Part shown: positions 7,563-26,584 of the stretch, piece after piece | How positions within the stretch are numbered: the stretch's first letter is position 1 | Layout: every line of letters starts with the position of its first letter | DNA from: Sphingomonadaceae bacterium | GTDB taxonomy: Bacteria; Pseudomonadota; Alphaproteobacteria; Sphingomonadales; Sphingomonadaceae | DNA length: 41,835 nt | NCBI GenBank assembly: GCA_020630295.1 | Contig: JAHDBR010000014.1 | Span: 1 to 41,835, forward strand | Direction of reading: 5' to 3' | Made by a program: the position numbers and the translations under genes | Notes under the pieces: model-generated | Told to the model about the DNA's origin: nothing | Database searches by the model: none | The model's input: the letters and a program-made list of their open reading frames with translations, nothing else

Positions 7563-7597
7563 AAGCGTGCAAATCCCCTGCAATTGCGGCGCTGCGT

Positions 7598-11351: not shown

Positions 11352-11368
11352 CGTTTGAAATCAGCCTG

Positions 11369-11390
11369 TCCCACATTGGGACTAGCCCAT
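11369..11390. repeat. Two overlapping short inverted repeats after the decarboxylase gene
   Basis: GTCCC-ACATT-GGGAC (11369-11383) and TGGG-ACTAG-CCCA (11378-11390) share the GGG arm, so only one stem can form at a time. They lie 18 bases after the decarboxylase stop. There is no T-run, so a classic intrinsic terminator is not supported. They could be a weak transcription barrier or protein-binding sites between the two operons. Confidence 0.4.
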
Positions 11391-11409
11391 ACTAAACAAC
11401 GGTAAACGC

Positions 11410-11439
11410 AAAAAGGATAACGGTATATTCACCCTTTTT
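11410..11439. promoter_or_regulatory. Inverted repeat around a possible -10 box ahead of the XrtA operon
   Basis: AAAAAGG (11410-11416) and CCTTTTT (11433-11439) flank TATATT at 11424-11429, which is a good -10 match on the plus strand. No convincing -35 is seen 16-18 bases upstream. The arrangement would suit an operator that overlaps a promoter needing an activator, or an A/T-rich stem after the previous gene. It is the best promoter candidate for the export/chain-length operon that starts at 11534. Confidence 0.35.
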
Positions 11440-11468
11440 AGCGACAACGCACTCCTAGTCCGCGGGTA

Positions 11469-11498
11469 GTGCACGCTCAGGTAGCGCCTGAAATGCAC
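11469..11498. repeat. Imperfect hairpin in the probable leader of the XrtA operon
   Basis: GTGCA..TCAGG-TAGCG-CCTGA..TGCAC forms two stacked stems (11469-11473 with 11494-11498, and 11477-11481 with 11487-11491), 36 bases before the start codon of the export lipoprotein. It could fold in the leader RNA or be a dyad operator. Confidence 0.4.
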
Positions 11499-11533
11499 AT
11501 TCCACCCGCTCAATTGGCAAGGGATGCGCATCA

Positions 11534-12178
11534 ATGCCGAATACAAAGTTTCCAAAGCTGCTTGCAGGCAGCGCCATGGCTGCACTGGCCCTGACAGGGT
11601 GTGCGTCTACCGGCGGAGGTCAGCTTCCTCCGGCATCATTTGTTGCCATGCAGGAAGGCCCGGGCGAAGAATATATTATCGGCCCGCTTGATGAGTTGAC
11701 CATCCATGTCTGGCGCAATCCAGAATTGGGAGCCGAGAAAATTCAGGTCCGCCCCGACGGACGGATCACCACACCGCTGGTCACTGACATGCCAGCTGTG
11801 GGCAAGACGCCGTCCATGCTGTCACAGGATATTCGCCTTCAGCTCTCGCAATATATTGAAGAGCCGCTGGTTTCTGTGATTGTTACAAAGTTTGCCGGCA
11901 CATTCAGCCAGCAGATCCGCGTTGTCGGCGCAACCGAGCAACCCGCATCGCTTCCGTACCGTGCGAATATGACTGTCCTTGACGCAATGATTGCGGTCGG
12001 CGGTCTTTCAGAATTCGCGTCGGGTAACCGCGCCAAACTGATCCGTTTCGACAAGTCTAAAGGCAAGCAGCAGGAATATGCGCTTCGCTTGGGGGACCTG
12101 CTGAAAAAAGGTGACAGCCGCGCGAACGTACTTTTGGCACCGGGCGATGTGATCATCATCCCGGAAAGCATGTTCTGA
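11534..12178 (+). CDS. XrtA-system polysaccharide export lipoprotein (Wza/GfcE-like)
   Basis: A 214-residue outer-membrane polysaccharide export protein. A signal peptide ends in the lipobox LTGC (Cys23), so it is a lipoprotein. The Poly_export domain begins at EYIIGPLDELTIHVWRNPEL (about residues 46-65), followed by a SLBB-like region (IRVVGATEQPASLPYRANMTVLDAMIAVGGL) and a C-terminal PGDVIIIPES. It forms the outer-membrane exit for the polysaccharide made by this locus. The ATG at 11534 has AAGGGA upstream. It is the first gene of the ten-gene operon. The matching chain-length protein begins 16 bases after its stop. Confidence 0.94.
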   Translation: MPNTKFPKLLAGSAMAALALTGCASTGGGQLPPASFVAMQEGPGEEYIIGPLDELTIHVWRNPELGAEKIQVRPDGRITTPLVTDMPAVGKTPSMLSQDIRLQLSQYIEEPLVSVIVTKFAGTFSQQIRVVGATEQPASLPYRANMTVLDAMIAVGGLSEFASGNRAKLIRFDKSKGKQQEYALRLGDLLKKGDSRANVLLAPGDVIIIPESMF

Positions 12179-12194
12179 GGGGACGGCTGAGAAC

Positions 12195-13715
12195 ATGAAC
12201 GAAGTTTTCGAAGATCTGCGCGCAGCGCTGTTTTCTGTCTGGCACCGCAGGTGGTTGGCGCTCGCCATCGCTTGGGGTGTGTGCGTGGTCGGGTGGCTTG
12301 CAGTCGCCTTGATCCCGAACGCCTACGAATCGGAAGCACGTATCTACGTGCAGCTTGATGACGTGTTGGCCGAACAGATCGGTATCGCAGGCGGCGCAGA
12401 ACGCGAGATTACGCGGGTCCGTCAGACGCTGACCAGCGCTGTCAATCTGGAAAAAGTCGTTCGTTCGACCAAATTGGGCGAAGACATTGCCGACCAGCGC
12501 GACATGGAAGCGGCCATTGCATCGCTTACCGATGACGTGTCGGTTCGCAGTGAAGCGGACAATCTGTTCGAACTGAAAGCCGAGATTGGCAAAAGCGACC
12601 TTACGGACTCCGAAAACGCACAATTATCGACTGCTGTTGTACAGAAACTTATTGATATCTTCCGTGAGGAAAACATTGCCGGCAACCGCGGCGACGTGGC
12701 CGAGACTTTGGTATTCCTCGACCAACAACTGGAAGATCGAAAACGCGAACTGGAAGCTGCCGAGCAGCGCCGTTTGGCGTTCGAATCCGAGAACCCCGAT
12801 CTGATTGGCGGAACCGGAACTTTGTCGACAAAGATTGGCAGTTTGCGTTCCGAACTGCGCAGTGTTGAAGCCGATCTGGCTGCTGCACAAAGCGCATTGG
12901 CGGCAATTAACGGCCAGCTTGCAGGCACTCCGCGTACTGTGGTTACGCCGGGCGTTACCGGCGGTGCACGCGCCGCACTGGCCGATGCACGCGGACAGAT
13001 GGCGAGCCTTCAGGCCCGCGGCCTGACTTCAAGCCATCCCGATGTAGTAGCGCTGAACAAGCAAATCGAGCTTCTGGCAAAACAGGCTGCGAACGAAAAC
13101 CCAAGCAGCGTGGGATCACCGAATCCGGCCTATACTATGCAGGTTTCAATCAAGGCCGAGCGTCAGGCCAATGTGCAGGCTCTGGCATCGCGCCAGGCAT
13201 CGCTGCAATCCGAGCTGACATCTCTTATGGCTAGCCAGTCATCCGAGCCAGGCGTTGCCGCTGAGGCAAACCGCATCAGCCGCGATTATGAAGTGCTCAA
13301 AGAGAAATATGACGAGCTGCTTCAGGACCGCGAGGAAATGAAGTTGCGCGGACAGGTCGAGAATGAGCGTAGCTCGTTCAAATTCGAAGTTATCGATCCG
13401 CCAACATCTCCGCGGTCACCCTCGGCACCGAACCGGCCATTGCTGCTGATCGGTGTGTTGATTGCGGGACTGGCCGCAGGCGTCGGCGGCGCATTCGCGA
13501 TCGGCCAATTGCGTTCGACCTTTGCGACGACTGCAAAACTGGAACGTGCGCTTGATCTGCCTGTTCTGGGCGCGATTTCGCACACGCTTACCGATAGCGC
13601 CCGCGAAATCCGCAACAAACGGATGAAGTATTTCATCGCTGGAACGGCTGCTTTGGGCGGTCTGTGTGTTATTCTACTCGCGGTGGAGTTCCTCCAGCGC
13701 GGCATGGTCGCGTGA
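12195..13715 (+). CDS. XrtA-system polysaccharide chain-length determinant protein (Wzz-like)
   Basis: A 506-residue inner-membrane polysaccharide co-polymerase. Membrane segments lie near residues 17-36 (RWLALAIAWGVCVVGWLAVA) and about 416-437, and a further hydrophobic stretch near the end (YFIAGTAALGGLCVILLAVEF) is a possible third. The large region between them is predicted coiled coil, rich in QLEDRKRELEAAEQRR-type sequence, and is expected in the periplasm; a proline-rich IDPPTSPRSPSAPNRP precedes the second segment, as is typical for Wzz proteins. There is no kinase domain; the tyrosine kinase is a separate protein encoded directly after it, so this is a split co-polymerase/kinase pair. 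It controls chain length and works with the export lipoprotein. Confidence 0.93.
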   Translation: MNEVFEDLRAALFSVWHRRWLALAIAWGVCVVGWLAVALIPNAYESEARIYVQLDDVLAEQIGIAGGAEREITRVRQTLTSAVNLEKVVRSTKLGEDIADQRDMEAAIASLTDDVSVRSEADNLFELKAEIGKSDLTDSENAQLSTAVVQKLIDIFREENIAGNRGDVAETLVFLDQQLEDRKRELEAAEQRRLAFESENPDLIGGTGTLSTKIGSLRSELRSVEADLAAAQSALAAINGQLAGTPRTVVTPGVTGGARAALADARGQMASLQARGLTSSHPDVVALNKQIELLAKQAANENPSSVGSPNPAYTMQVSIKAERQANVQALASRQASLQSELTSLMASQSSEPGVAAEANRISRDYEVLKEKYDELLQDREEMKLRGQVENERSSFKFEVIDPPTSPRSPSAPNRPLLLIGVLIAGLAAGVGGAFAIGQLRSTFATTAKLERALDLPVLGAISHTLTDSAREIRNKRMKYFIAGTAALGGLCVILLAVEFLQRGMVA

Positions 13716-13725
13716 GGGGCTGGAT

Positions 13726-14835
13726 ATGACCGAACATAAAAACATCCCGCTGCCTGACGGTAACGAGCCTGAAAAGAATGAAGGCAGCACCGAAAGCTCG
13801 CTTTTTGAGCGTGCTAGCGGAGCGTTCGGTTTTGACCCGTTCAAACCGACACCAATCAAAACCAAGCTGCCCGAACGCGAAATGAAGCGCGCCAAAGTTC
13901 GTGCGAAAAATCGCGGCAAAGATGACGCAAAAGAGATCGCGGCAGAAGGTGCCCCTCAATCGGCTCCGCGCAGCGATCACGCCGAAAAAATTGAGGCGGA
14001 GGTTTGTGCGCCTGCAGAAAATCTGCCTGTTCCGGCTCCGACAACTATGCCTGCCGTCGTGCCGGCAGCAGAGCTAACAGTCGATCAGGACGTTGGTTCA
14101 GTGGCTCTTTCAGGCAAGAAGTTCCCGGTAGACCGGGAGTTCCTGCGCGAACAAGGCATGATTGTCCCCGAAGGCGCAGTGACCGCGCTGATGGAAGAAT
14201 TCCGCATTGTTAAGCGGCAGATTCTCAAGGCTACCCTTGAGCGCGGCACCGGTAAATCGCGCCGCATCCTGATCTGCTCGCCGCACCCGAATGAGGGTAA
14301 GACATTCTGCGCGACCAACCTCGCAATTGCGATGGCGGCCGAGCGGGATGGCGAAGTCCTGCTGATTGATGCGGACTTTGCCAAGCCTTCCGTACTGTCC
14401 ACCTTAGGCCTGCCGAAAGGTCCAGGTTTTATGGATTGCCTGGCTGACGCTTCGGTCCAACCTGAAGATTTAGTCATCGGTACGGATATTCCTGGCTTGT
14501 GGGTCCTGCCTACGGGCAATCAGACGACCAACGACAGCGAGTATCTGGCCAGTGAACGGACGGGTGATGTGCTCGACCGCCTGACCAATGGCGCGCCAAA
14601 CCGCATCATCATCTTCGATACTCCGCCTGCTTTGTCGGCATCACCTGCCGCGGAACTGGCCCGTCATGTGGGACAGGCTCTGCTTGTCGCACGAGCGGAC
14701 AAGACCGGGCAAAGCGCGCTTGAAGACGCGTGTCAGCTTCTGTCGGCCTGCCCTGACATTAAACTCCTTCTCAACGCCGCACATTTCAGCCCGAGCGGGC
14801 GGAAATTTGGTTCCTACTATGGATATGGGGAATAA
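13726..14835 (+). CDS. XrtA-associated tyrosine autokinase (BY-kinase)
   Basis: A 369-residue cytoplasmic BY-kinase. The first ~150 residues are charged and low in complexity, with Ala/Pro stretches. The kinase domain follows: a Walker A-like SPHPNEGKTFCAT (about residues 185-197), Walker A' VLLIDADFAKPS (211-222) and Walker B IIIFDTPPA (294-302). The tail SYYGYGE carries three tyrosines as a short autophosphorylation cluster. In this family cycles of autophosphorylation tune assembly with the Wzz-like partner. ATG 13726 follows the partner's stop by 10 bases and has a GAGG upstream; the open frame runs back into the partner gene but that extension is unlikely to be used. Confidence 0.92.
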   Translation: MTEHKNIPLPDGNEPEKNEGSTESSLFERASGAFGFDPFKPTPIKTKLPEREMKRAKVRAKNRGKDDAKEIAAEGAPQSAPRSDHAEKIEAEVCAPAENLPVPAPTTMPAVVPAAELTVDQDVGSVALSGKKFPVDREFLREQGMIVPEGAVTALMEEFRIVKRQILKATLERGTGKSRRILICSPHPNEGKTFCATNLAIAMAAERDGEVLLIDADFAKPSVLSTLGLPKGPGFMDCLADASVQPEDLVIGTDIPGLWVLPTGNQTTNDSEYLASERTGDVLDRLTNGAPNRIIIFDTPPALSASPAAELARHVGQALLVARADKTGQSALEDACQLLSACPDIKLLLNAAHFSPSGRKFGSYYGYGE

Positions 14836-14841
14836 CCCGCC

Positions 14842-16500
14842 ATGAAAAAACTTACCTTCACCACCATTGGCGCAGTCATCGCGCTCGGAATTACAGCTCC
14901 CGTTGCTGCGCAAGACAATTCGCGCACGGATGAGGATAGCAGCGAAAGCCGCGGAGGCGGCACCGGACGGCCTGATGTGGAGCCTTATATCGAGGTGTCC
15001 CAGATTGCTGTCGCGGAACTTTCGCCCGGCAATGATGTCGTCACCTATACGCAGGTAGCAGCCGGTGTGGATGCTTCCGTTACCGGACGCAACAATGGCG
15101 GCTCTGTATCGCTGCGCTACGAACGTAACATTGGCTACGGCGATGAGGCCCTGAACAGTGATACTGTTTCCGGTATCGCACGCGGTTATGCCACCATTGT
15201 TCCAAAAGCCCTGACGGTGGAGGCAGGCGGTATCGCCGCCCGTACCCGTGTTGATGGCAATGGCGGTGCGACGCTCAACCCGCTCAATGGCGAAGATACA
15301 GAATCGCGGATTTACTCGGCCTATGCCGGACCAAACGTCCATACACAGGCCGGTGATGTTGAAGTGAACGCCAATTACCGGATCGGTTACACGCGAGTTG
15401 AAACGCCTGATGCGCTGAATGTAGCGCCTGGCGCGCAACCGGTGGACGTGTTCGATGAAAGCGTCTCGCAAAGTGCGGCAGTGCATCTGGCAACGCGTCC
15501 CGGTGAACCATTGCCAGTAGGCGTGGGCGTTGGCGCAGGCTGGAATCAGGAAGATGTGTCCAACCTCGACCAGCGAGTGCGCGATGCGTACGTCCGCGGT
15601 GATATCACAGTGCCGATTTCGCCAACGCTGGCGGTAGTCGGCGGTGTCGGATATGAGGACGTTGAAGTTTCAAGCCGCGATGCGCTGCGTGATGTGAACG
15701 GTGACCCGGTCATTGGTGACGATGGCCGCTTGGTTACGGACAGTTCGCAGCCGCGCCAGCTTGCCTATGATGTATCGGGCCTGATCTGGGATGCCGGTAT
15801 CGTGTGGCGGCCAAGCTCACGTACGTCGTTCGAGGCTCACGTTGGCCGGCGTTACGATTCGACCAGCTATTACGGCAGCCTTGCCTATACGCCAAACAAA
15901 CGCAGCTCATTGAGTGTGTCGGTTTACGATACTGTTAGCGGCTTCGGTAATCAGCTGAACACGGCGCTGGCCAATCTGCCAACCGAGTTCACTGTTAACC
16001 GCAACGCGTTGACCGGTGATCTTGGCGGGTGCCTAGGCGGCTCTGAAGGCGCTGCCTGCCTTAACGGAGCGTTCTCCTCGGTACGTTCGTCTGTATTCCG
16101 TTCGCGCGGTGTGTCGGCCAATTATTCGACTAAAGCGGGCCGTCTGACGACCGGTGTCGGCTTCGGCTATGACCGCCGCCGCTTCATTGCCGCACCTGGA
16201 ACGGTTCTGGCTTCTGCTAACGGCGTATTGGATGAAAGCTACTATGCAGCATTTTTCCTATCGGGTGATATTGACCGCAATTCAGGTTTCACCACCAACG
16301 CTTATGCAAACCTGATCCAAAGCGGGTTCGACGAATCGGGTGATGTTCTCGCGGTAGGTGCTTCGGCAGCCTATAACCGCAGCATTACATCGCGTTTGTC
16401 CGCGCGGGCAGCCGTGGCGCTGGATCATATCGACAGCGATGTTGCTCTCGAAGACTTCACAGCAGCATCGGCCTTGATCGGCCTTCGCTACGGTTTCTGA
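14842..16500 (+). CDS. XrtA-locus outer-membrane beta-barrel protein (TIGR03016-like)
   Basis: A 552-residue secreted protein. It has a clear signal peptide (MKKLTFTTIGAVIALGITAPVAAQ, cleaved near residue 24), an acidic linker, then many alternating-pattern strands and a terminal aromatic (GLRYGF), all typical of an outer-membrane barrel. It sits in the position usually taken by the 'PEP-CTERM system-associated' barrel family of these loci. It has no PEP-CTERM tail and so is not an exosortase substrate. Its likely role is outer-membrane passage or docking of the polysaccharide. The loop near residues 393-408 (GGCLGGSEGAACLNGA) holds two cysteines that could form a disulfide. It starts 6 bases after the kinase stop. 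Confidence 0.85.
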   Translation: MKKLTFTTIGAVIALGITAPVAAQDNSRTDEDSSESRGGGTGRPDVEPYIEVSQIAVAELSPGNDVVTYTQVAAGVDASVTGRNNGGSVSLRYERNIGYGDEALNSDTVSGIARGYATIVPKALTVEAGGIAARTRVDGNGGATLNPLNGEDTESRIYSAYAGPNVHTQAGDVEVNANYRIGYTRVETPDALNVAPGAQPVDVFDESVSQSAAVHLATRPGEPLPVGVGVGAGWNQEDVSNLDQRVRDAYVRGDITVPISPTLAVVGGVGYEDVEVSSRDALRDVNGDPVIGDDGRLVTDSSQPRQLAYDVSGLIWDAGIVWRPSSRTSFEAHVGRRYDSTSYYGSLAYTPNKRSSLSVSVYDTVSGFGNQLNTALANLPTEFTVNRNALTGDLGGCLGGSEGAACLNGAFSSVRSSVFRSRGVSANYSTKAGRLTTGVGFGYDRRRFIAAPGTVLASANGVLDESYYAAFFLSGDIDRNSGFTTNAYANLIQSGFDESGDVLAVGASAAYNRSITSRLSARAAVALDHIDSDVALEDFTAASALIGLRYGF

Positions 16501-16518
16501 TCTCAGGGGATAGAACAG

Positions 16519-17670
16519 ATGTTTGATGATTTTTATGGCCTGACGGGACGGCCTTTCCAGCTGACCCCAGATCCGAATTTCTATTTCGAGAGTGCGACGC
16601 ACCGTAAGGCGTTATCGTATCTCGGATACGGAATGGCGCAAAGCGAAGGCTTCATCGTTATCACGGGTGAGGTGGGTGCCGGTAAATCGACACTGGTCGC
16701 GCATATGATGCAGAAGGTTGATCGCAACCAGCTGACCGTCGGCCAGGTTGTGACCAGTAATCTGGACGGCGACGAGCTGGTCCATGTGGTGGCTCAAAGC
16801 TTCGGACTTGATGTCGAGGGGCAGGACAAGGCTGCGGCGCTGGGTGCGATTGAAAATTTCCTGCACGAAGAGGCCCGCGAAGGCCGCCGGACTCTGCTCG
16901 TCGTGGACGAATCGCAGAACCTCTCTGTCGAGGCTCTGGAAGAGCTCCGGATGCTGTCCAATTTCCAACTCGGTTCGCATCCTTTGCTGCAATTGCTGCT
17001 GCTCGGTCAGCCAGAATTCAAGCAAGTCTTGGCGCAGCATGAAGAGCTGGAACAATTGCGCCAGCGGGTTATCGCGGCGCACCATTTGCAGGCAATGGAG
17101 CCGGGCGAGCTCGAGCCTTACATCAAGCACCGCCTTGAATGTGTTGGCTGGAACGGCAACCCCGACTTTGACCAGCGCGTGTTTAAAGAATTGTATGAGG
17201 CAACGGACGGTATTCCGCGCCGGGTCAACCAAGTGGTTACACGCTTGCTGTTGCTGGGCGCTGTCGAACAACGCACGCGGATCGACAATGCGATGCTGAC
17301 AGCGGTTATGACAGAAATGATGGGAGACAACACGTTCCCAGAAGCTGCGCCAAAACCGATGGACAAGATTGCACCGGCTCCTGCGCCGGGTCCGATAAAG
17401 CACGCCGCCCGGCCTGCTGCGCCGGCTCCTGCACAAATGGCGGCAAATGTTGGCACGCGCGAGGATGAAATTCGCGAATTGCAACAGGCGGTCGTGGAAC
17501 TGTCTTCGCAAGTGGACACCGGCGGCGAAGCGGCAGAGATTGCCAAACTTCGTGACCAGATCAGACTTCTTGAAGCACGTTTGGAAGAGCAAGAGCGGAC
17601 TGTCCGCCATGTTCTGACAATGCTGATTGAGTGGATCGAAACCGGCGAATCACCGCGCGCTGCAGCGTAA
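16519..17670 (+). CDS. XrtA/PEP-CTERM system-associated AAA ATPase (ExeA-like)
   Basis: A 383-residue general-secretion ExeA-type ATPase. It opens with the family signature FYGLTGRPFQLTPDPNFYFES (residues 5-25). Walker A is GEVGAGKST (residues 50-58) and Walker B is LLVVDESQNLS (about residues 130-140). Arginine-rich IPRRVNQVVTRLLLLG follows. The C-terminal ~100 residues are Pro/Ala-rich and then coiled coil (EIAKLRDQIRLLEARLEEQERT). No peptidoglycan-binding domain or membrane segment is seen. ATG 16519 is preceded by CAGGGGA. The deacetylase gene begins 13 bases after its stop. Its precise role in exopolysaccharide export is not known. Confidence 0.92.
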   Translation: MFDDFYGLTGRPFQLTPDPNFYFESATHRKALSYLGYGMAQSEGFIVITGEVGAGKSTLVAHMMQKVDRNQLTVGQVVTSNLDGDELVHVVAQSFGLDVEGQDKAAALGAIENFLHEEAREGRRTLLVVDESQNLSVEALEELRMLSNFQLGSHPLLQLLLLGQPEFKQVLAQHEELEQLRQRVIAAHHLQAMEPGELEPYIKHRLECVGWNGNPDFDQRVFKELYEATDGIPRRVNQVVTRLLLLGAVEQRTRIDNAMLTAVMTEMMGDNTFPEAAPKPMDKIAPAPAPGPIKHAARPAAPAPAQMAANVGTREDEIRELQQAVVELSSQVDTGGEAAEIAKLRDQIRLLEARLEEQERTVRHVLTMLIEWIETGESPRAAA

Positions 17671-17683
17671 GAGTAGAGCTCTC

Positions 17684-18571
17684 ATGAAACATTCTCCGAT
17701 TGCGGCTGCGCCGGTCATCAACGGCCTCTCGGTCGATGTAGAAGACTGGTTCCAGGTTGGAGCGTTCGAGAATGTCATCGAGCGTAGCGACTGGGACGAC
17801 CTTTCTCTGCGCGTCGAGGATAATGTTGTCCGCATTCTCGATATGTTTGACGAGGCAGATGTGAAGGCAACGTTCTTCACGCTTGGCTGGGTTGCGCAGC
17901 GGCATGGTCCGCTCATGCGCCGCATTGTCGAGGCGGGTCATGAACTGGCCAGCCACGGTTATGACCATGCGCGCGTGTTTACATTCAATCAGAAGGAATT
18001 TGGCGAGGATATACGCAAAGCGCGGGAAATTCTCGAAGACGCCTCCGGTGCATCTATTACCGGGTACCGTGCGCCGAGCTTTTCCATCGATCAACGCACG
18101 CCGTGGGCCTATGTCGAACTTGCGCAGCAAGGCTACGCCTATTCCAGCAGCGTGGCACCCGTAGCGCACGATCACTATGGCTGGCGCGATGCACCGCGAT
18201 TTGCGTTCCGGCCTTTACCGGGGGCCGATTTGATCGAAATCCCCGTAACCACGGCTATGCTTGGCGGGAAACGTGTGGCGGCGGGCGGCGGCGGGTTCTT
18301 CCGCGTATTGCCATATGCGTTCTCACGCTGGGCGATCCGGCAGGTTAATCGCGAAGAAGGACGCCCTGCGGTGTTCTATTTTCACCCGTGGGAAATTGAT
18401 CCGGATCAGCCGCGAGTACCAGGCGCGCCGGTCAAATCACGGCTGCGGCATTATACCAATCTCAAAAAGATGGCGCCGAAATTGCGTGATCTGGTGGGTG
18501 AATTTGCATGGGGCCGGATGGACATGATTGCCCACCGCGAGGCGGCACTGGTCGAGGAAATGCCCGCATGA
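17684..18571 (+). CDS. XrtA-system polysaccharide deacetylase (NodB-like, DUF3473)
   Basis: A 295-residue carbohydrate esterase family 4 protein. The metal/catalytic Asp motif SVDVEDWFQ is at about residues 15-23, the zinc histidines are in SHGYDH (about residues 90-95), TGYRAPSFSID is motif 3, and a conserved FYFHPWEID lies near residue 230, followed by the DUF3473 C-terminal part. No signal peptide is seen, which is usual for this group. It should remove N-acetyl groups from hexosamines of the polysaccharide or a precursor, exposing free amines. The ATG at 17684 is preferred over the upstream in-frame start, which lies inside the ATPase gene. It overlaps the FemAB gene by four bases. Confidence 0.93.
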   Translation: MKHSPIAAAPVINGLSVDVEDWFQVGAFENVIERSDWDDLSLRVEDNVVRILDMFDEADVKATFFTLGWVAQRHGPLMRRIVEAGHELASHGYDHARVFTFNQKEFGEDIRKAREILEDASGASITGYRAPSFSIDQRTPWAYVELAQQGYAYSSSVAPVAHDHYGWRDAPRFAFRPLPGADLIEIPVTTAMLGGKRVAAGGGGFFRVLPYAFSRWAIRQVNREEGRPAVFYFHPWEIDPDQPRVPGAPVKSRLRHYTNLKKMAPKLRDLVGEFAWGRMDMIAHREAALVEEMPA

Positions 18572-19647
18572 ATGCGCCGTTTCCTCTGTCCTCGGAAACA
18601 ATCTCCGTTGCCGATCTGCGCGATCCGGGGGAAGTCTGCCGCATCGAACGGTTTGTCGCCGACAATGCAGGTACGATTTTCCAGCGTCCCAAATGGCTTC
18701 AGGCGGTCGACCGCAGCACCGGTCATAAGGCATCTGGCCTTGTCGCGGAAAGATGCGGTCAGATTACCGGATGGCTTCCATTTAGCGAAGTCCACTCACC
18801 GTTATTCGGCCGCGCTTTGGTATCCAGCGGCTTTGGTGTCGGCGGCGGCCCGTTAGTGGCTCTGCACGATGGCGCGAATGAGAATACCGCACAAGCACTT
18901 TGTAAATCGGCAGAAGAGGTCGCTATTCGTAGCTCATGCCCGTCTATCGAATTGCGCAACGGAGATGCTCCGGCGGGATGGCATAGATGGAATGACAGCC
19001 ATTGCGGTTTCGAAACCGATCTGGCCGATGATGACGAACAGCAATTACTGGCGATCCCGCGTAAACAACGTGCCGAGGTTCGCAAAAGCCTGAAACTTGA
19101 TCTTGAAGTCAGTGTTGGCACCCAGCCAGCTGATCGCGGTGCGCATTACGCGGTCTATGCCGCCAGCGTCCATAATTTGGGCACGCCGGTGTTTCCGCGC
19201 GCTTTGTTCGATACGATGCTCGATATGTTCGGCGACGATGCCGACATCTTGACGGTGCGGCATCAGGGCGAGCCTGTTGCCAGCGTTCTGTCATTCTATC
19301 ACGGCGGCGCTGTGTTGCCATATTGGGGCGGGGGCACCTTTGCCGCGCGCCATCTGCGTGCGAATGAACGGATGTATTACGAATTGATGCTGCACGCCCG
19401 AAATCGTGGGTGTGATCGGTTCGATTTTGGCCGCTCGAAAACCGGCAGCGGTCCTTACAATTATAAGAAGAATTGGGGCTTCGAGCCGCAGCCATTATCC
19501 TATGCCAGCTGGACTGCGCCGGGCCATGAACCGCGCGATCTAAGCCCCAACAACGAAGCCTATTCAGCCAAGATCGAACTTTGGAAAAAGCTGCCTTTGG
19601 CGCTGGCCAACCGGATTGGCCCCAGCATTGCGCGCGGTCTTGCCTGA
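18568..19647 (+). CDS. FemAB-family XrtA/PEP-CTERM system-associated protein
   Basis: A 359-residue FemAB-like protein (TIGR03019 type) with two GNAT-like lobes. Visible blocks are FVADNAGTIFQRPKWLQAVD, IPRKQRAEVRKSLK, NLGTPVFPRALF, and a late CDRFDFGRSKTGSGPYNYKKNWGFEPQPL characteristic of the family. FemAB proteins transfer aminoacyl groups, classically to peptidoglycan. Here a role in adding an acyl or aminoacyl group to an amine on the polysaccharide, possibly exposed by the deacetylase just upstream, is plausible but unproven. ATG 18568 overlaps the deacetylase stop (ATGA) and its own stop shares a base with the next start (TGATG). Confidence 0.92.
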   Translation: MNAPFPLSSETISVADLRDPGEVCRIERFVADNAGTIFQRPKWLQAVDRSTGHKASGLVAERCGQITGWLPFSEVHSPLFGRALVSSGFGVGGGPLVALHDGANENTAQALCKSAEEVAIRSSCPSIELRNGDAPAGWHRWNDSHCGFETDLADDDEQQLLAIPRKQRAEVRKSLKLDLEVSVGTQPADRGAHYAVYAASVHNLGTPVFPRALFDTMLDMFGDDADILTVRHQGEPVASVLSFYHGGAVLPYWGGGTFAARHLRANERMYYELMLHARNRGCDRFDFGRSKTGSGPYNYKKNWGFEPQPLSYASWTAPGHEPRDLSPNNEAYSAKIELWKKLPLALANRIGPSIARGLA

Positions 19648-20879
19648 TGGGCGATATACTGTTTCTTGCCCACCGGATGCCGTTCCCGCCTGACCGCGGT
19701 GACAAAATTCGATCGCACCATTTATTGGCCGAGTTGCGCAAACTCGCGCCCGTTCATGTTGGCTGCTTTGGCGACACTGATGGTGATTTTGCCCACGAGC
19801 AGGAACTGGCGGACGCCGCCAAAACCTATATTCTTCCGCGTCGGACAAAATCGATGGCGCGCGCCGGGCTGGAAGCCTTGGCCAGCGGTCAGCCGGTCAG
19901 CCTGACTGCTTTTCATGACCCCAAGATTCATGAATGGGTCAAACAGACCATCCGCGACAATGATATCGCGACAATCTTCGTTTTTTCAGGCCAGATGGGC
20001 CAATATATTCCTGACGATTTTCAGGGCAAGATTGTCATCGATCTTTGCGATGTAGATTCGGCGAAGTTCGACGCTTATGCGCAAGACGGCACATTCCCGC
20101 GCAAATGGATTGATGCGCGTGAAGGGCGGGTCTTGTCGCACGTCGAAAGCAAGCTGGCGGCTCGCGCCGATCACACCCTGTTTGTGAGCGAGGCTGAGGC
20201 TGCATTGTTTTGCAACCGTTTGCCCGCAACGGCGAACCATTCTGTGGTCGCTGTCCGCAACGGCATTGACGCAAACTTTTTCGACCCGTCAAAGGTCAGC
20301 GCGCATCCTGAACTTTCTAACGATAGCGGACCGCATCTCGTCTTTACCGGCCAGATGGATTACGCGCCTAATGTCGCGGCAGCGCAGCGGGTAATGGACC
20401 GGCTGTTGCCGCAGATCCGTAAAGTTCATCCAAACGCGCAGTTCCACCTTGTTGGCCGCGCGCCGGTCGCAAAACTGACCGCGCGCGACGGGCAAGACGG
20501 TATCAGAGTTTGGGGCGAAGTTCCCGATGTCAGGCCGTTCCTGAAATCCGCCGATATCGTTGTCGCGCCGCTGGAAATTGCCCGGGGCGTGCAGAACAAG
20601 GTTCTGGAAGCGATGGCGATGGCGCGGCCTGTCCTGCTATCTGCCGAAGCGGCAACCGGCATCGATGCGATTGACCGGACCCATTTCGCAATCGGGCGGG
20701 ATGACGGCGAACTGGTCGAAACGGCCTGCGCTCTCATCGCTAATCGCTCCGAAGCAAACCGGATGAGCATGGCCGCGCGTGAATATGTCGTCACGCAGCA
20801 GGGCTGGTGCGCCATGCTCGCGCCGTTGGCAGAATTATGCGGATTCGAAAATTCGGAAAGATGCCGCGATGCCGCTTGA
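19647..20879 (+). CDS. XrtA/PEP-CTERM system-associated sugar transferase (GT4-like glycosyltransferase)
   Basis: A 410-residue GT-B-fold glycosyltransferase of the TIGR03087 group. It opens with ILFLAHRMPFPPDRGDKIRSHH (residues 4-25), the nucleotide-free acceptor lobe start. The donor lobe has LVFTGQMDYAPNVAAAQRV, VWGEVPDVRPFLKSADIVVAPLEIARGVQNKVLEAMAMARPVL, the classic GT4 E-x7-E region. It would add a sugar to the lipid-linked repeat on the cytoplasmic face. The start is the ATG sharing a base with the FemAB stop; an earlier in-frame start inside that gene is less likely. It ends 11 bases inside the exosortase gene. Confidence 0.93.
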   Translation: MGDILFLAHRMPFPPDRGDKIRSHHLLAELRKLAPVHVGCFGDTDGDFAHEQELADAAKTYILPRRTKSMARAGLEALASGQPVSLTAFHDPKIHEWVKQTIRDNDIATIFVFSGQMGQYIPDDFQGKIVIDLCDVDSAKFDAYAQDGTFPRKWIDAREGRVLSHVESKLAARADHTLFVSEAEAALFCNRLPATANHSVVAVRNGIDANFFDPSKVSAHPELSNDSGPHLVFTGQMDYAPNVAAAQRVMDRLLPQIRKVHPNAQFHLVGRAPVAKLTARDGQDGIRVWGEVPDVRPFLKSADIVVAPLEIARGVQNKVLEAMAMARPVLLSAEAATGIDAIDRTHFAIGRDDGELVETACALIANRSEANRMSMAAREYVVTQQGWCAMLAPLAELCGFENSERCRDAA

Positions 20880-22431
20880 TCTGGCCATGCGAAACGCTGT
20901 CCCGAATTTTGCGAAACCGGCGTTGCCAGAGGCTTGGAAAGGCCCCTTGCTTCGGCTGTCGATTGCGTGGGCCGCATTGTTCGTGCTGACGCTGCGCGAT
21001 TGGCTGACAATGTTTGACCAGTGGTGGAATATTTCCACTTATAACCATGTCTTGTTTGTGCCTCTGATCGCCGGATGGTTGATCTATTGGCGTAAGGAAG
21101 AACTCGCCGCAATCGTCCCAAAAGCATGGTGGCCCGGACTGCTGGCGCTGGCTGGCAGCCTGTTTATGTGGCTTCTGGGATCTTTGGCCGGCGTAAATAC
21201 GATTAGCCAGTTCGGCGCTGTTTTAGCGCTCCAGTCCTGCGTTGTGGCGCTGCTCGGGCTGCGCGTGGCGGCGGCGTGTTTCTTCCCGCTGGCATATCTG
21301 CTGTTTCTGGTACCCTTTGGTGACGAGTTGGTACCGGCGCTGCAGATGATTACCGCAAAGCTGGTGATAGCATTGACCGAATGGAGCGGAATTCCCGCCG
21401 TTATTGACGGAGTGTTTATCGACACGCCGGTTGGTCTGTTCGAAGTTGCCGAAGCCTGTTCGGGCGTGAAGTTCTTGGTCGCGATGGTCGCGCTGGGAAT
21501 TCTGGTCGGGTATACGTGCTTCAAATCCTGGAAACGGCGGATCATTTTTATGAGCGCAGCGGTGGCGCTGCCGATTTTGGCCAACGGCATTCGTGCATGG
21601 GGAACCATTTATATTGCGCAGTTCCAAGGCGTGGAATTTGCCGAAGGGTTCGACCACATTTTCTACGGTTGGGTATTCTTCGCGCTGGTTGTCGGCGCAT
21701 TGCTGGCCGGTGCGTGGCGTTGGTTCGATCGGGAGCCTGAGGAAGTCGGCGCAGACTTTACGCAGCTAGTTCAGCGCCCGTGGTTTTCCAGAATCGAAAA
21801 TGCATGGATGGGCCAGAACAGCGCGGTGATTGCGGCCATGTTCCTGATCGTGGGCATCGGAGCGTGGCAAGCCACTGCTTCGCGCGTGGAGGCGAGTGTG
21901 CCGGCACAAATCGCGCTGCCAGAGGTCGCTGGCTGGACACGCGTCGATTATACCCCTGTGGTAGCTTGGGAGCCAAAGGCAAGCGGCGCCGACCACCGGT
22001 TGATAGGCCGTTACCGCAATCAAGACGGGCAGGAAGTCGACGTTTTCTTCGCTCTCTATTCCGCTCAGGAAGAAGGCCGCGAGGCATCGGCCTTCGGGGA
22101 GGGCGCCTTGGTGCCGGACACGGCATGGCGCTGGGTTGAGCAGGGACCGCGCGTTGCCGGCGCCATGAGTGATTATTATCTGGCATTCGGCCAGCAGAAG
22201 CGACTGGCGCAAACCAGCTACCGGACGGGTCAAATTCTTTCGGGCAGCGCATTGCAACTCAAACTTGCCAATATGCAGGACAGGCTGTTGTTGCAGGACG
22301 CACCGACGATGCTGCTGATCCTGTCGAGCGAGCAGAATAACGACCAGTCGCTGGAGCAATCCATCGCCAATTTCCGTCAATCGATCGGCGATGAAGGCGA
22401 ATGGATGGACCGCATCGCAGGCCTGCGTTAG
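20869..22431 (+). CDS. xrtA: Exosortase A fused to an EpsI-type domain
   Basis: A 520-residue integral membrane transpeptidase. About eight membrane segments lie in residues 28-285 and hold the exosortase triad: Cys197 in EVAEACSGVKF, Arg242 in ANGIRAWG and His263 in FDHIFYGW. A further segment near 310-330 leads into a ~190-residue soluble EpsI/DUF3485 domain (about 335-520; AGWTRVDYTPV, FFALYSAQEEGREA, LPDTAWRW-like). Exosortases cleave PEP-CTERM tails and attach the protein to another molecule, as sortases do. The fusion to EpsI is common in this group. The ATG at 20869 has GGAAAG 8 bases upstream and overlaps the glycosyltransferase end by 11 bases; an earlier ATG at 20861 is out of frame. 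Confidence 0.95.
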   Translation: MPLDLAMRNAVPNFAKPALPEAWKGPLLRLSIAWAALFVLTLRDWLTMFDQWWNISTYNHVLFVPLIAGWLIYWRKEELAAIVPKAWWPGLLALAGSLFMWLLGSLAGVNTISQFGAVLALQSCVVALLGLRVAAACFFPLAYLLFLVPFGDELVPALQMITAKLVIALTEWSGIPAVIDGVFIDTPVGLFEVAEACSGVKFLVAMVALGILVGYTCFKSWKRRIIFMSAAVALPILANGIRAWGTIYIAQFQGVEFAEGFDHIFYGWVFFALVVGALLAGAWRWFDREPEEVGADFTQLVQRPWFSRIENAWMGQNSAVIAAMFLIVGIGAWQATASRVEASVPAQIALPEVAGWTRVDYTPVVAWEPKASGADHRLIGRYRNQDGQEVDVFFALYSAQEEGREASAFGEGALVPDTAWRWVEQGPRVAGAMSDYYLAFGQQKRLAQTSYRTGQILSGSALQLKLANMQDRLLLQDAPTMLLILSSEQNNDQSLEQSIANFRQSIGDEGEWMDRIAGLR

Positions 22432-22441
22432 AGGCGCTATT

Positions 22442-24340
22442 ATGTGCGGTATTGCTGGCATATTCCATTGCGGGACCCCGAAACCCGTTGATCCGGTTCG
22501 GATCGAGCGGATGTGTGACGCCATCGCGCATCGCGGGCCCGACGGTAGCGGCGTCTGGACTGAACGCGGGGTAGGGCTGGGGCACCGCCGTCTTTCTATC
22601 ATCGACCTGGAAGGCTCTCCGCAGCCAATGCTGTCCGCAGACGGCGATGCGGTGATTGTGTTCAACGGCGAAATTTATAATTTCAAGGAATTGCGGCGCG
22701 AACTGGAAGGCCATGGGGCCGTGTTTCGCACTGGCGGGGATACAGAAGTCATATTGGCAGCGTGGCAGCGCTGGGGCATTGACTGCCTTCAGCGGCTGCA
22801 GGGAATGTTTGCGTTTGCGCTGTATGATGTGAAAAATAAAGAGCTGTTACTGGCGCGTGACCGGCTAGGCGTGAAGCCACTGTTTATGGCACCGCTCAGC
22901 GATGGCAGTATGGCTTTCGCATCCGAACTCAAAGGCTTGCTGGCGCACCCTCTTTTGCGGCGGGATGCAAACCCGCTTGCGGTCGAAGATTACATGACGT
23001 GGGGCTATATTCCCGATCATACGTCCATTCTTAAAGGCGTAGAGAAACTGCCTGCGGGCCATTTCCGTTTGCTAAAGCATGGCCAAGCGCCGGCCCCTAG
23101 CCGGGAATGGTGGGACGTAAGTTTCGCAGACCGGCATAGAGGGAAAACGGCGGACCTTTCTGCGGAATTGTTGCATCATATGCGCGAAGGCGTTGTGTCC
23201 AGAATGGATGCGGATGTTCCACTGGGCGCATTCCTGTCCGGCGGTGTGGATTCGTCCAGCGTCGTCGCGCTTATGTCCGAGGCCAGCCGTGATCCAGTGA
23301 CAACCTGCTCGATCGGTTTCGATGTCAGCGCGCTCGATGAAACCGGTTATGCGCAAACGGTTGCGGATCTTTTTGCCACCGACCATCACAGCCGGACAGT
23401 TGCGCCGGATGATTTTCAGCACGTTGACGCATTGTCGCATATGTTTGACGAACCGTTTGCCGATGCGTCTGCATTGCCGACATGGCGGGTATGCCAGCTG
23501 GCGCGCGAACATGTGACAGTGGCTTTGTCCGGTGACGGCGCAGACGAGGCGTTTGCAGGTTACCGCCGCCAGGTTTTCCACGCGCGTGAGGAACAAATCC
23601 GGTCTGCAATTCCATCGTTCTTGCGCAAGCCGGTATTTGGCGGTCTGGGATCTGTATGGCCAAAAGCCGATTGGGCCCCGAGGCCGCTTCGCGCAAAATC
23701 GACATTTCTTGCACTCGCGCAGGACGGGAATGAAGGATATGCGAATGCGCTATCAGTCATCCCGCCGAAATTGCGTTTTGAATTGTATTCGGATGACCTC
23801 AAGCGCCAGCTTTCGGATTACCGAGCGGAGCAGCCACTGGTCGCTATGATGCGGGATGCGCCAGCGCGATCTGGCTTGGACCGGGCACAATATGCGGATT
23901 TGAAATTCTGGTTGCCGGGCGATATCCTCACCAAGGTCGACCGGACGAGCATGGCTGTAAGTCTGGAAGCACGCGAACCGCTACTCGATCACCGTTTGAT
24001 AGAATTCGGGGCGAAATTGCCGCATAAAGCGCGCATCCGCGGCGCGCAGGGCAAGTGGCTGATCAAACATACCATGGAACGCTATCTGCCATCGAACATT
24101 CTGTACCGCCCGAAACAGGGATTTGTGACACCCATCGGAGAATGGTTTCGCGGGCCGTTGGCCAGTGCTGCGCAGCAAATTGCCAAGGGCGGACATCTTG
24201 CCCAAACAGGGTGGTTTGATCAGGCGGCGCTGTCCCGAATAGCGGAAGACCATCTTTCCGGGCGGTCCGATCACGGCCGGATATTGTGGCAATTAATGAT
24301 GTTGGACCGCTCAATAAAAAATCTCGGCATTGCCCAGTAA
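22442..24340 (+). CDS. XrtA/PEP-CTERM-system amidotransferase (asparagine synthase-like)
   Basis: A 632-residue class-II glutamine amidotransferase plus asparagine synthase protein (TIGR03108 type). After removal of Met the catalytic Cys2 starts the protein (MCGIAGIF). RGPDGSGVW, the HRRLSIIDL and FNGEIYN motifs complete the glutaminase domain (to about residue 190). The ATP-pyrophosphatase loop is FLSGGVDSSSV (about residues 262-272), and LSGDGADEAFAGYRR and DRTSMAVSLEAREPLLD follow. It would amidate a carboxyl group, probably on a sugar or on a precursor of the exopolysaccharide, rather than make free asparagine; the context is the evidence. ATG 22442 is required for the N-terminal cysteine, so the upstream in-frame start is rejected. 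It ends the operon. Confidence 0.93.
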   Translation: MCGIAGIFHCGTPKPVDPVRIERMCDAIAHRGPDGSGVWTERGVGLGHRRLSIIDLEGSPQPMLSADGDAVIVFNGEIYNFKELRRELEGHGAVFRTGGDTEVILAAWQRWGIDCLQRLQGMFAFALYDVKNKELLLARDRLGVKPLFMAPLSDGSMAFASELKGLLAHPLLRRDANPLAVEDYMTWGYIPDHTSILKGVEKLPAGHFRLLKHGQAPAPSREWWDVSFADRHRGKTADLSAELLHHMREGVVSRMDADVPLGAFLSGGVDSSSVVALMSEASRDPVTTCSIGFDVSALDETGYAQTVADLFATDHHSRTVAPDDFQHVDALSHMFDEPFADASALPTWRVCQLAREHVTVALSGDGADEAFAGYRRQVFHAREEQIRSAIPSFLRKPVFGGLGSVWPKADWAPRPLRAKSTFLALAQDGNEGYANALSVIPPKLRFELYSDDLKRQLSDYRAEQPLVAMMRDAPARSGLDRAQYADLKFWLPGDILTKVDRTSMAVSLEAREPLLDHRLIEFGAKLPHKARIRGAQGKWLIKHTMERYLPSNILYRPKQGFVTPIGEWFRGPLASAAQQIAKGGHLAQTGWFDQAALSRIAEDHLSGRSDHGRILWQLMMLDRSIKNLGIAQ

Positions 24341-24510: not shown

Positions 24511-25449
24511 ATGGATAGTGGCAGCAAAGGCTTGGATGGCACAGGTGTATCCGCCATGCCCATGGGGGGCGACGAGGAAGAGCTCGTCATCGGTAATCCT
24601 CTATATGCCGGTATCCCTGACGAACTGTTTTCGCTGAAAGAACTGGATGTTCTTTATCAAGAAGAAACGCAAACCTTGTGGTCGTATATGCGGCCCAGCG
24701 GCAGGCCCACCTTCACGCGGGAATTGCTGAGCGACTTCGAAAATTGGCAGAAGCTGATTGCCAAAGGATTTGGCCCGGGCAAAGTCCCGCTAAAGTTTCT
24801 TGTTCTAGGCAGCCGGGCGCCAGGCGTTTTCTGTTTCGGCGGAGATTTGCAGCTGTTTCAGGAATTGATCCGTCAGCGTGACCGCGAGGGCTTGGTCCGG
24901 TACGGGCATCGCTGCTGCGCGATCCTGCACAAGAATATGAATGCGCTCGATATTCCGATGTTGACTATCGGTCTGGTCGAAGGATCGGCGCTTGGCGGCG
25001 GCTTTGAAGCATTGCTGTCATTCGATTATATCGTGGCTGAGCGGAACGCGACTTTCGGCTTGCCGGAAATTATGTTCGGCCTGTTTCCCGGCATGGGCGC
25101 GCATGCGTTTCTGTCGCGCAAACTTGGCAGCGCGATGGCAGACCGGCTGATCGTATCGAATGAAACCTACACCGCTGAAGAAATGTATGATCTTGGGATT
25201 GTGCATCATTTGGCCGAACCGGGCGAGGGGCTGTCCGCGTGTAAGGACTTCATCAAAAAATCGGAGCGGCGCCATGTCGGGCTGACGAATTCCCGCAAGG
25301 CGATGAAAATTGCGTGGAACCTCGAACTTGAGGAGCTGAACCGGATTACGGAACTGTGGGCGGATTCCGCCTTACAGCTCAGCGATCGTGATCTGAAAGT
25401 GATGTGCCGTCTGGCAGGGGCTCAAGAGAAACTGGTGAAAGCAGCCTGA
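24511..25449 (+). CDS. RpfF-like crotonase (candidate DSF-family signal synthase)
   Basis: A 312-residue crotonase-fold protein. It retains the features of RpfF, the enzyme that makes diffusible signal factor fatty acids: GVFCFGGDLQLF (oxyanion hole), EGSALGGGFEALLSFDYIVAE, FGLPEIMFGLFPGMGAHAFL, and a C-terminal ITELWADSALQLSDRDLKVMCRL. The glutamates of the two catalytic positions, E166 in GGGFE and E186 in GLPEI, are both present and are 20 residues apart, as are E141 and E161 of Xanthomonas RpfF. Ordinary enoyl-CoA hydratases are shorter (about 260) and lack this C-terminal segment. It lies 170 bases after the XrtA operon, same strand. Start uncertain: TTG 24454 and ATG 24556 are in frame; ATG 24511 is chosen. 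No RpfC or RpfG homologue is in the window. Confidence 0.82.
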   Translation: MDSGSKGLDGTGVSAMPMGGDEEELVIGNPLYAGIPDELFSLKELDVLYQEETQTLWSYMRPSGRPTFTRELLSDFENWQKLIAKGFGPGKVPLKFLVLGSRAPGVFCFGGDLQLFQELIRQRDREGLVRYGHRCCAILHKNMNALDIPMLTIGLVEGSALGGGFEALLSFDYIVAERNATFGLPEIMFGLFPGMGAHAFLSRKLGSAMADRLIVSNETYTAEEMYDLGIVHHLAEPGEGLSACKDFIKKSERRHVGLTNSRKAMKIAWNLELEELNRITELWADSALQLSDRDLKVMCRLAGAQEKLVKAA

Positions 25450-25465: not shown

Positions 25466-26584
25466 TTAGTAGTCTGCGCCGTGGCCTAGCGCCATGTAAT
25501 CATCGCTCTGCATTTCCATCAACCGGCTGACGGTTCGTTCGAACTCGAAGCTGCCGTCGCCGGCTTGGTACAGGTCCGCAGGTTCTGCGTCCGCAGTTGC
25601 GAACAGCTTCACGCGGTGTTCGTATAGGGCATCAATCAGCGTGACGAACCGGGCGGCCTCGTTCCTGTCGTCTGGTCCCATGACCGGAATTCCGACAATG
25701 ATTACGGTGTGATACGCTTGTGCGATTGCCAGATAATCGCTTGCCCCGCGTGCTTCGGAACATAACCGTTTGAAGCTAAAGACCGCAGTACCCTTCAGTG
25801 CCCTTGGAACGTGCAAAGTACGCCCGCCGCCAAGATCAAGCTGTGCAGATGGCACATTGTCGCCATCATCGGGATCATAGTCGGTCAGGCGGAAAAATGC
25901 CTCCCGCACTTGTGCAGTAGCGGCATCGCCCAACGGAGTGTGCCAAGTGTCCAGCCCGCCCAGCCGGTCAAGACGGTAATCGATTGGACCGTTAAGCGGG
26001 ATAACATCAAGACGTTGTTCGATTAGATCGATAAACGGCAGAAAATGCTCGCGATTTAATCCGTCCTTGTACAAATCCTGTGGAGGTCTGTTGGAGGTGG
26101 TTACGATCGTCACCCCCTCATCGACTATTAAGGCTCGGAACAGGCGGCTCATAATCATCGCATCGGCGGAGTTATTGACCACCATTTCGTCAAAGGCGAG
26201 GCATCGGAGCCCCTCTGCGAGTTTTGCGGCAACCGGCGGGATCGGGTCGCCGCTCTCTTTCTTGCGCTCTTCGCGGAGCAGGGCGTGTACTTCCAGCATA
26301 AAGGCATGGAAGTGGACGCGGCGCTTTTCGTCTATGGCCAGCGCATCGTGGAACAGGTCCATCAACATGGACTTCCCGCGGCCGACACCGCCCCACATAT
26401 ACACACCGCGCGGCGAAGGCTCGCTTTTACCCAGTAGCTTGCTGAAAAACCCGCCTCCAGTTTCGTTGACCAACTCGCCGCGTAGTTTGGCCAGACGCTG
26501 CGCTGCCGCTTTCTGTTCGGGATCGGGCCGCAACTCGCCAGCTTCGACCAGTTGCTCATATCGGGAAACAGGCGTTTGCGTCAT
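25466..26584 (-). CDS. zapE: Cell division protein ZapE (AFG1-like ATPase)
   Basis: A 372-residue AFG1/ZapE ATPase. It begins SRYEQLVEAGELRPDPEQKAAAQRLAKL; Walker A is GGVGRGKSMLMDLF (near residue 65), Walker B is LAFDEMVVNN (about residue 130), and the sensor-type TSNRPPQDLYKDGLNRE follows. In bacteria it acts at the constricting FtsZ ring; the mitochondrial relative AFG1 is linked to respiratory complex handling. Its ATG overlaps the stop of the thioesterase gene by four bases (ATGA), and that gene follows sdhB, so sdhB, thioesterase and zapE form one minus-strand unit. It converges with the RpfF-like gene across 16 bases. Confidence 0.94.
   Translation of the reverse strand: MTQTPVSRYEQLVEAGELRPDPEQKAAAQRLAKLRGELVNETGGGFFSKLLGKSEPSPRGVYMWGGVGRGKSMLMDLFHDALAIDEKRRVHFHAFMLEVHALLREERKKESGDPIPPVAAKLAEGLRCLAFDEMVVNNSADAMIMSRLFRALIVDEGVTIVTTSNRPPQDLYKDGLNREHFLPFIDLIEQRLDVIPLNGPIDYRLDRLGGLDTWHTPLGDAATAQVREAFFRLTDYDPDDGDNVPSAQLDLGGGRTLHVPRALKGTAVFSFKRLCSEARGASDYLAIAQAYHTVIIVGIPVMGPDDRNEAARFVTLIDALYEHRVKLFATADAEPADLYQAGDGSFEFERTVSRLMEMQSDDYMALGHGADY

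Follow-up and report, generated by a model that had tools for sequence, protein, structure and literature searches.

A predicted DSF-type synthase beside the XrtA operon of a sphingomonad and its candidate membrane GGDEF-EAL receptor

A crotonase-like gene that directly follows an exosortase operon raises the question of whether it encodes a synthase of DSF-type signals, whether it belongs to the exopolysaccharide locus beside which it stands, and which protein would perceive its product. The gene considered here lies in a window of 41,835 nucleotides (the whole stretch of DNA that was analyzed; contig JAHDBR010000014.1 of the Sphingomonadaceae assembly GCA_020630295.1). A first-pass annotation of this DNA had described an RpfF-like enzyme, suggested a tie to the exosortase locus and placed the receptor elsewhere in the genome or in another protein type; as a whole, that interpretation is partly supported by the analysis reported here.

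Sequence, tree placement and fold of the synthase

The synthase frame at 24511-25449 (+) is open and encodes 312 aa followed by a stop codon. The features of the gene are as follows:

24511..25449, + strand: RpfF/DfsA-branch crotonase (P0001), predicted DSF-type synthase (ORF, NCBIfam and PDB similarity, tree, fold)
25006..25008, + strand: codon of Glu166, first catalytic-type glutamate (alignment; E in 66/66 XrtA-site rows)
25066..25068, + strand: codon of Glu186, second catalytic-type glutamate (alignment; E in 66/66 XrtA-site rows)
25081..25101, + strand: LFPGMGA block (F192 99% conserved in RpfF-branch rows, absent in 5 plain-crotonase rows)
25345..25398, + strand: C-terminal ITELWADSALQLSDRDLK block (translation and alignment)

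As judged by sequence comparison, the similarity of the synthase to crotonase/RpfF-type proteins exceeds chance by far. The NCBIfam model NF006452 (PRK08788) gave 353 bits, where the cut-off is 177, and the nearest PDB sequences were RpfF-type enzymes with E values from 2e-50 to 7e-44, the next match being at 1e-16. The name of NF006452, crotonase/enoyl-CoA hydratase family protein, gives no specific function. With the RpfF equivalog NF053515 the synthase scored 206.6 bits, below the curated cut-off of 550, and it is not assigned to this Xanthomonas-type equivalog. That cut-off was reached in only 3 of the 398 genomes of a phylum sample. The score was considered as a disproof of an RpfF-type enzyme and dropped, since rows grouping with DfsA (L164-L168, 180–188 bits) miss the cut-off too.

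The GGDL-LF, GLPE--F-LFPGMGA and C-terminal blocks noticed in the first-pass annotation are all present in the translation, as GGDLQLF, GLPEIMFGLFPGMGA and ITELWADSALQLSDRDLK. Both of the catalytic glutamates that it named are also there, E166 and E186, 20 residues apart and aligned with the pair called E141 and E161 in RpfF in a passage of PMC9040811, a paper on acidophiles; the 66 XrtA-site rows that all carry them count some genomes twice. The pair is not diagnostic of RpfF, because it occurs in two of the four distinct plain crotonases of the window’s genome that were aligned (five rows, L002 and L006 being one gene, with seven other crotonase-like places in the genome), and it was dropped as proof. 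Of six other residues (Y131, C135, F189, F192, E275 and R300), each is 96–100% conserved over 159 rows of the RpfF branch and none occurs in the 5 plain rows. This alignment holds 156 synthase loci, with some genomes present twice (e.g. L054/L242); L162, truncated at the edge of its contig, was excluded, and L005 and L008 had no usable ORF.

A Maximum Likelihood tree of 91 rows was generated from 84 of the 156 aligned synthase loci, the window protein, two PDB segments and four plain crotonases. The RpfF clade, which the first-pass annotation had left for phylogeny to establish, was recovered with the window protein grouping with RpfF (3m6m) and DfsA (5fus) in a branch of 87 rows, separated from the four plain crotonases at 100/100, a split in which the outgroup branches are long. 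Within it, the XrtA-linked clade (25 rows, 100/99) was nested in a clade of 46 rows (100/99), the remaining 21 of which each adjoin a TM-GGDEF-EAL gene. The sister of the window’s clade (fork 100/97) consisted of the convergent pairs L084, L141, L088 and L139, and one further synthase paired with a TM-GGDEF-EAL gene, L181, fell outside the 46-row clade on a long branch. At the base of the RpfF branch the order is not supported and the branches are long, so that the clade is placed no nearer to RpfF than to DfsA.

For the fold comparison, the window protein was modeled with AlphaFold (pLDDT 83.8); in a PDB search with this model, ranks 1–12 were all chains of DfsA, Cronobacter RpfF, ‘RpF-1’ and RpfF, after which E falls from 2e-19 to 1e-14. 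The window synthase is thus alike in fold to Burkholderia DfsA and Cronobacter RpfF, its best PDB matches, and has both branch and fold in common with Xanthomonas RpfF. Pseudomonas DspI, for which a passage of PMC13220807 gives homology to RpfF and a connection with a DSF-type acid, came at rank 16 amid plain crotonases, and the chemistry is therefore not strictly tied to the branch. Tree and fold together support the reading of an RpfF-type enzyme.

The XrtA locus around the synthase

The neighborhood of the synthase in the window comprises the following genes:

7233..7583, - strand: XrtA-cluster gene for a small phosphopantetheine carrier protein (domain search)
8602..20879, + strand: rest of the XrtA operon (TIGR profile matches)
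20779..22431, + strand: exosortase A with EpsI domain, TIGR03109 (TIGR cut-off)
22391..24340, + strand: amidotransferase TIGR03108 (XrtA/PEP-CTERM), the gene preceding the synthase, gap 170 bp (TIGR cut-off)
25466..26584, - strand: zapE, encoding an AFG1-like ATPase and convergent to the synthase (family match), in the position filled by the receptor gene in other lineages

The genes between 8602 and 20879 encode an acyl ligase, a PLP decarboxylase, an export protein, a chain-length protein, a tyrosine kinase, an outer-membrane protein, an ATPase, a deacetylase, a FemAB protein and a glycosyltransferase. Ten genes of the operon scored above cut-off (TIGR03098, 03099, 03027, 03007, 03015, 03006, 03019, 03087, 03109 and 03108), and two profiles, TIGR03018 and TIGR03016, were matched below it. 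Exosortase A and its associated genes beyond cut-offs identify the locus as an XrtA/PEP-CTERM locus, and the first-pass description of an RpfF-like crotonase directly after an exosortase operon holds, given the 312-aa frame, its NF006452 score and the ten TIGR matches upstream. A long frame antisense to the carrier-protein gene (7324-8223, +) had no NCBIfam match and is probably a shadow ORF.

On the 3′ side, zapE, a hotdog thioesterase gene and sdhB run convergent to the synthase. A receptor gene adjoining and convergent with the synthase, as seen in the sister rows, is not found at the window, where zapE stands instead. A receptor hidden in the synthase-zapE gap was ruled out by tblastn of the window genome’s own receptor (see below) against 80 loci (L009-L088), which gave matches only in L080 and L084-L088 and none in the XrtA-site loci; the ORFs examined in wider synthase-zapE gaps read like pirin or TonB receptors.

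The synteny with xrtA proposed in the first-pass annotation was surveyed in the best 80 of 113 confirmed synthase loci. XrtA-core genes lay near the synthase in 63 of these; nine others had only the ligase and decarboxylase and eight neither. In all loci of this sample with both genes (62/62) the amidotransferase was upstream on the synthase strand, at 120–443 bp from the aligned synthase start in 41 of the 49 loci measured and at 5.2–5.4 kb in the other eight (including L060 and L065); in L065 the intervening ORFs look like an ABC transporter. The nine loci with the acyl ligase and PLP decarboxylase beside the synthase and no XrtA-core gene seen (L035, L040, L042, L043, L046, L047, L049, L067 and L083) have the small carrier-protein gene in eight cases, the exception being L083, on a 3-kb contig.

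Across 347 genomes of the family, 12 of the 117 genomes with a synthase were without XrtA, and 121 of the 226 genomes with XrtA were without a synthase. The receptor’s sensor domain was present in 11 of these 12 XrtA-less synthase genomes and in 9/9 of those at least 90% complete. In a separate search, XrtA was not found in 10 of 12 synthase genomes, eight of the ten having the receptor; these absences are weak because nine of the ten are metagenome bins. At locus L030, neither an XrtA core nor a ligase lies between the neighboring genes; the crotonase is kept there, as is the receptor in that genome. In addition, no XrtA-operon gene occurred within the 7–20 kb examined around 17 receptor-adjacent sphingomonad loci. 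XrtA is dispensable, in that synthase and receptor mostly persist in genomes missing it. The upstream operon of the window conforms to the known XrtA/PEP-CTERM exopolysaccharide locus, but the synthase is no obligatory component of it.

Receptor genes beside related synthases and in the window’s genome

At loci away from XrtA, a receptor-type gene was located within 3.2 kb of the synthase in 64 of 69 cases, or 61 of 66 distinct loci, since three of the rows (L139, L247 and L261) are copies of others. The partners in the 64 loci were 34 RpfC-like histidine kinases, 25 TM-GGDEF-EAL proteins (22 distinct) and five RpfR-like proteins, as classed by tblastn with kinase, GGDEF-EAL, PAS and TM-sensor queries and by Pfam on samples. 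In every one of them except L181 the receptor gene was downstream on the opposite strand. Among the five loci without a receptor gene, L158 and L162 break off at, or close to, the end of a contig; at L160, L161 and L163 no such gene was seen. The convergent arrangements rpfF-rpfGHC and rpfF-rpfR are already described (in a passage of PMC4504480), so that a third partner type at the same place is telling; an excerpt of PMC8357829 gives the Leptospirillum rpf genes as all in one direction, and convergence is therefore not universal. The window’s relatives share convergence with the receptor gene with the rpfF-rpfGHC locus of Xanthomonas, whereas the two genes are unlinked in the window’s own lineage. 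Many genomes of about 1–3 Mb from one proteobacterial family (f176) carry RpfF-branch genes, and an RpfC-like kinase adjoins the synthase in the three loci examined (L174, L175 and L183).

A profile (A1) was built from eight TM sensors of receptors adjoining synthases. Its search of the window’s genome (G000) gave a single match, at 11521-12117 of contig C41 with E 2e-46, which falls in the following gene:

C41:11452-13425 (L214:9453-11426): 658-aa receptor candidate that carries GGDEF and EAL domains (A1 profile match, Pfam)

The GGDEF, EAL and DDFGTG motifs of this protein are intact. The first-pass expectation of a receptor elsewhere or of another type agrees on both counts with this membrane GGDEF-EAL protein, whose gene lies between those of a cell-wall hydrolase and mdh, on another contig than the synthase. 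The same order, cell-wall hydrolase (PF07486), receptor, mdh, was observed in 22 of 29 loci (L214-L232, L252, L266-L272, L331 and L332). A Pfam search of the C41 protein found nothing before the GGDEF domain, neither an FI nor a PAS input, and did not find the HisKA, HATPase, REC and Hpt layout of RpfC. Among the eight sensors, Pfam gave one DUF3487 (E 0.0005), one LapA_dom (E 0.09) and otherwise no match. The sensor of the relative L084, modeled from six sequences, showed seven long helices (pLDDT 85.9), taken to be six that cross the membrane and one at the N-terminus; a PDB fold search with this model returned no match at E 0.001 or better, and hhalign found no relation between the TM sensor and that of RpfC (probability 1.9). 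The candidate therefore differs from the RpfC/RpfG system of Xanthomonas, in which the partner is a histidine kinase. It resembles RpfR of Burkholderia and Cronobacter in joining a GGDEF-EAL output to the receptor in one protein, although RpfR is soluble with an FI-PAS input and the C41-type input is a membrane domain to which Pfam gives at best the weak DUF3487 match in one of eight.

The receptor tree matched that of the synthases, with 26 rows of separated or receptor-only genes forming one starred clade beside L139, L088 and L141/L084 (L085, L087, L180 and L181, for which no full ORF was taken, and the copy L080 were omitted). Taken together, the receptor of the synthase is very probably the 658-aa C41 protein. 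A receptor gene was also detected in Pontixanthobacter luteolus, a relative whose synthase is 82% identical to that of the window. In one genome with a receptor and no synthase (G044; L229, 4258-12321), the receptor gene adjoins zapE, the hotdog gene and sdhB, with mdh about 2.6 kb away on the other side; a synthase remnant was sought there and not found. This locus is possibly a relic of one undivided ancestral locus, later broken so that zapE kept the synthase as its neighbor and mdh the receptor. A secondary move of the receptor is equally possible, because the observation comes from a single genome, whose receptor falls among those of the separated type in the tree.

Co-occurrence, co-evolution and proposed function

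Co-occurrence was analyzed in the 347 family genomes with E thresholds of 1e-50 for the synthase, 1e-30 for the sensor and 1e-60 for XrtA, giving 117, 125 and 226 positive genomes, respectively. Synthase and sensor were found together in 105 genomes, the synthase alone in 12, the sensor alone in 20 and neither in 210 (odds ratio 92); the corresponding values for synthase and XrtA were 105, 12, 121 and 109 (odds ratio 7.9). The 26 convergent adjacent pairs were left out as a control, because A1 was built from synthase-adjacent receptors and finds these by construction, and the association with the sensor remained (79/12/20/210, odds ratio 69). Fisher values overstate such associations because genomes share ancestry. 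Using a quick rpoB tree (56 of 59 genomes, three having no rpoB match; two rows partial), eight independent pairs differing in the synthase could be drawn on starred branches, in which the sensor agreed in an average of 7.1 (median p 0.016, range 0.008–0.125) and XrtA in 4.2 (median p 0.125). The synthase thus tracks the sensor far more than it tracks XrtA, and its association with the exosortase locus is less tight than the first-pass annotation suggested; synthase genomes lacking XrtA were among those found.

Among the 12 genomes that have a synthase but no sensor, eight were examined (L142 and L253-L259); in all of them, genes for an RpfC-like kinase and a GGDEF-EAL protein lie downstream of the synthase on the opposite strand. 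Pfam confirmed the kinase in 5/5 scanned and gave a REC-PAS-GGDEF-EAL regulator in 2/2 scanned, standing where RpfG has HD-GYP. The 20 genomes with a sensor and no synthase match (four of them under 90% complete; e.g. L229, L231 and L266-L270) possibly belong to listeners that perceive signals made by other bacteria.

Synthase and receptor distances were compared across 14 genomes in which the two genes are separated: the matrices correlated with r 0.82 (partial r 0.77 given rpoB), and 0 of 5000 permutations reached that value. As controls, the partial r given rpoB was 0.28 between the synthase and a fragment of the adjoining amidotransferase and 0.11 between the synthase and mdh (n=12). For the cell-wall hydrolase beside the receptor it was 0.50, so that part of the co-evolution signal is perhaps not specific.

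These data bear on how the link between the two proteins is to be explained. That it reflects shared genome ancestry and not function is very unlikely in our view: both genes occur mainly within one portion of the family, the hydrolase correlates as well and some drawings of the only eight independent pairs reach p 0.125, but the median p is low, the distance correlation holds given rpoB, amidotransferase and mdh correlate less, and 26 genomes have the genes in convergent adjacency. A crotonase recruited to the XrtA/exopolysaccharide system, acting on carrier-protein acyl chains with the TIGR03098 ligase and the TIGR03099 decarboxylase and making no signal, would fit the invariable amidotransferase upstream and the nine loci that keep ligase and decarboxylase (eight with the carrier) where no XrtA core is seen. 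It is nevertheless unlikely, given the odds ratios of 7.9 for XrtA and 92 for the sensor, the 17 receptor-adjacent loci free of XrtA-operon genes, the crotonase kept at L030 in a genome with the receptor, and a synthase sequence that co-evolves with the receptor.

The enzyme could also be an RpfF-branch thioesterase/dehydratase for membrane lipid balance, controlled by contact with the GGDEF-EAL protein and exporting no signal. RpfF-type enzymes have thioesterase activity restrained by RpfC or RpfR (according to passages of PMC13220807 and PMC8357829), and equal co-evolution of synthase and receptor would be predicted. Against this, the partner is built like a signal-transduction protein in all three receptor classes, and the sensor stands alone in 20/347 genomes, as would be expected of a listener; we judge this explanation improbable. 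Our preferred reading, which we hold to be likely, is that of a DSF-type signalling pair whose synthase has settled beside an exopolysaccharide locus and whose receptor belongs to a third class of DSF receptors. What the data show directly is the branch and fold of the synthase, its conserved residues, and its pairing and co-evolution with the receptor.

By analogy with RpfF and DfsA, the synthase would dehydrate a 3-hydroxyacyl-ACP to its cis-2-enoyl form and free the cis-2-enoic acid as a diffusible signal. The C41 protein would perceive the acid through its membrane domain (six helices as read), which would shift its cyclase/phosphodiesterase activity and so change cyclic di-GMP. The ancestral layout would have been a convergent synthase-receptor pair; in the window’s lineage the synthase would have come to stand behind the XrtA operon and the receptor between the cell-wall hydrolase and mdh genes, with co-evolution continuing. 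The exopolysaccharide operon may, speculatively, be a target of the signal, considering its position and one transcript result from an unrelated bacterium: in Leptospirillum ferriphilum, addition of DSF/BDSF raised transcripts of one glycosyltransferase gene of a PEP-CTERM/XrtA system (an excerpt of PMC12122527). Such a link can thus exist elsewhere, which makes signal control of the envelope plausible and control of this operon possible.

The kind of enzyme is already known; what is new is its pairing with a previously undescribed membrane GGDEF-EAL receptor, separated yet co-evolving. Among the matches listed in searches of open PMC papers, none was recognized on DSF signalling in sphingomonads or on such a receptor pair, and none of the open PMC papers joined ‘exosortase’ with ‘RpfF’. 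In its wider form we lean only slightly towards the proposal, which is that DSF receptors comprise, beside RpfC and RpfR, a third core class, a six-helix membrane sensor fused directly to GGDEF-EAL with its own synthase subclade, in Sphingomonadales and some genomes labelled Hyphomicrobiales, that one large lineage split the pair, leaving the synthase beside XrtA while the two co-evolved apart, and that receptor-only relatives may listen. The analysis corrects a natural over-reading, in that the function of a gene is not defined by its adjacency to an exosortase locus, and it ties the sphingomonad members of NF006452 to DSF-type receptors. If the proposal is true, a large alphaproteobacterial group, many of its members marine, would have a DSF-type cell-cell signal, and a new class of membrane receptor would convert a fatty-acid signal into cyclic di-GMP within one protein.
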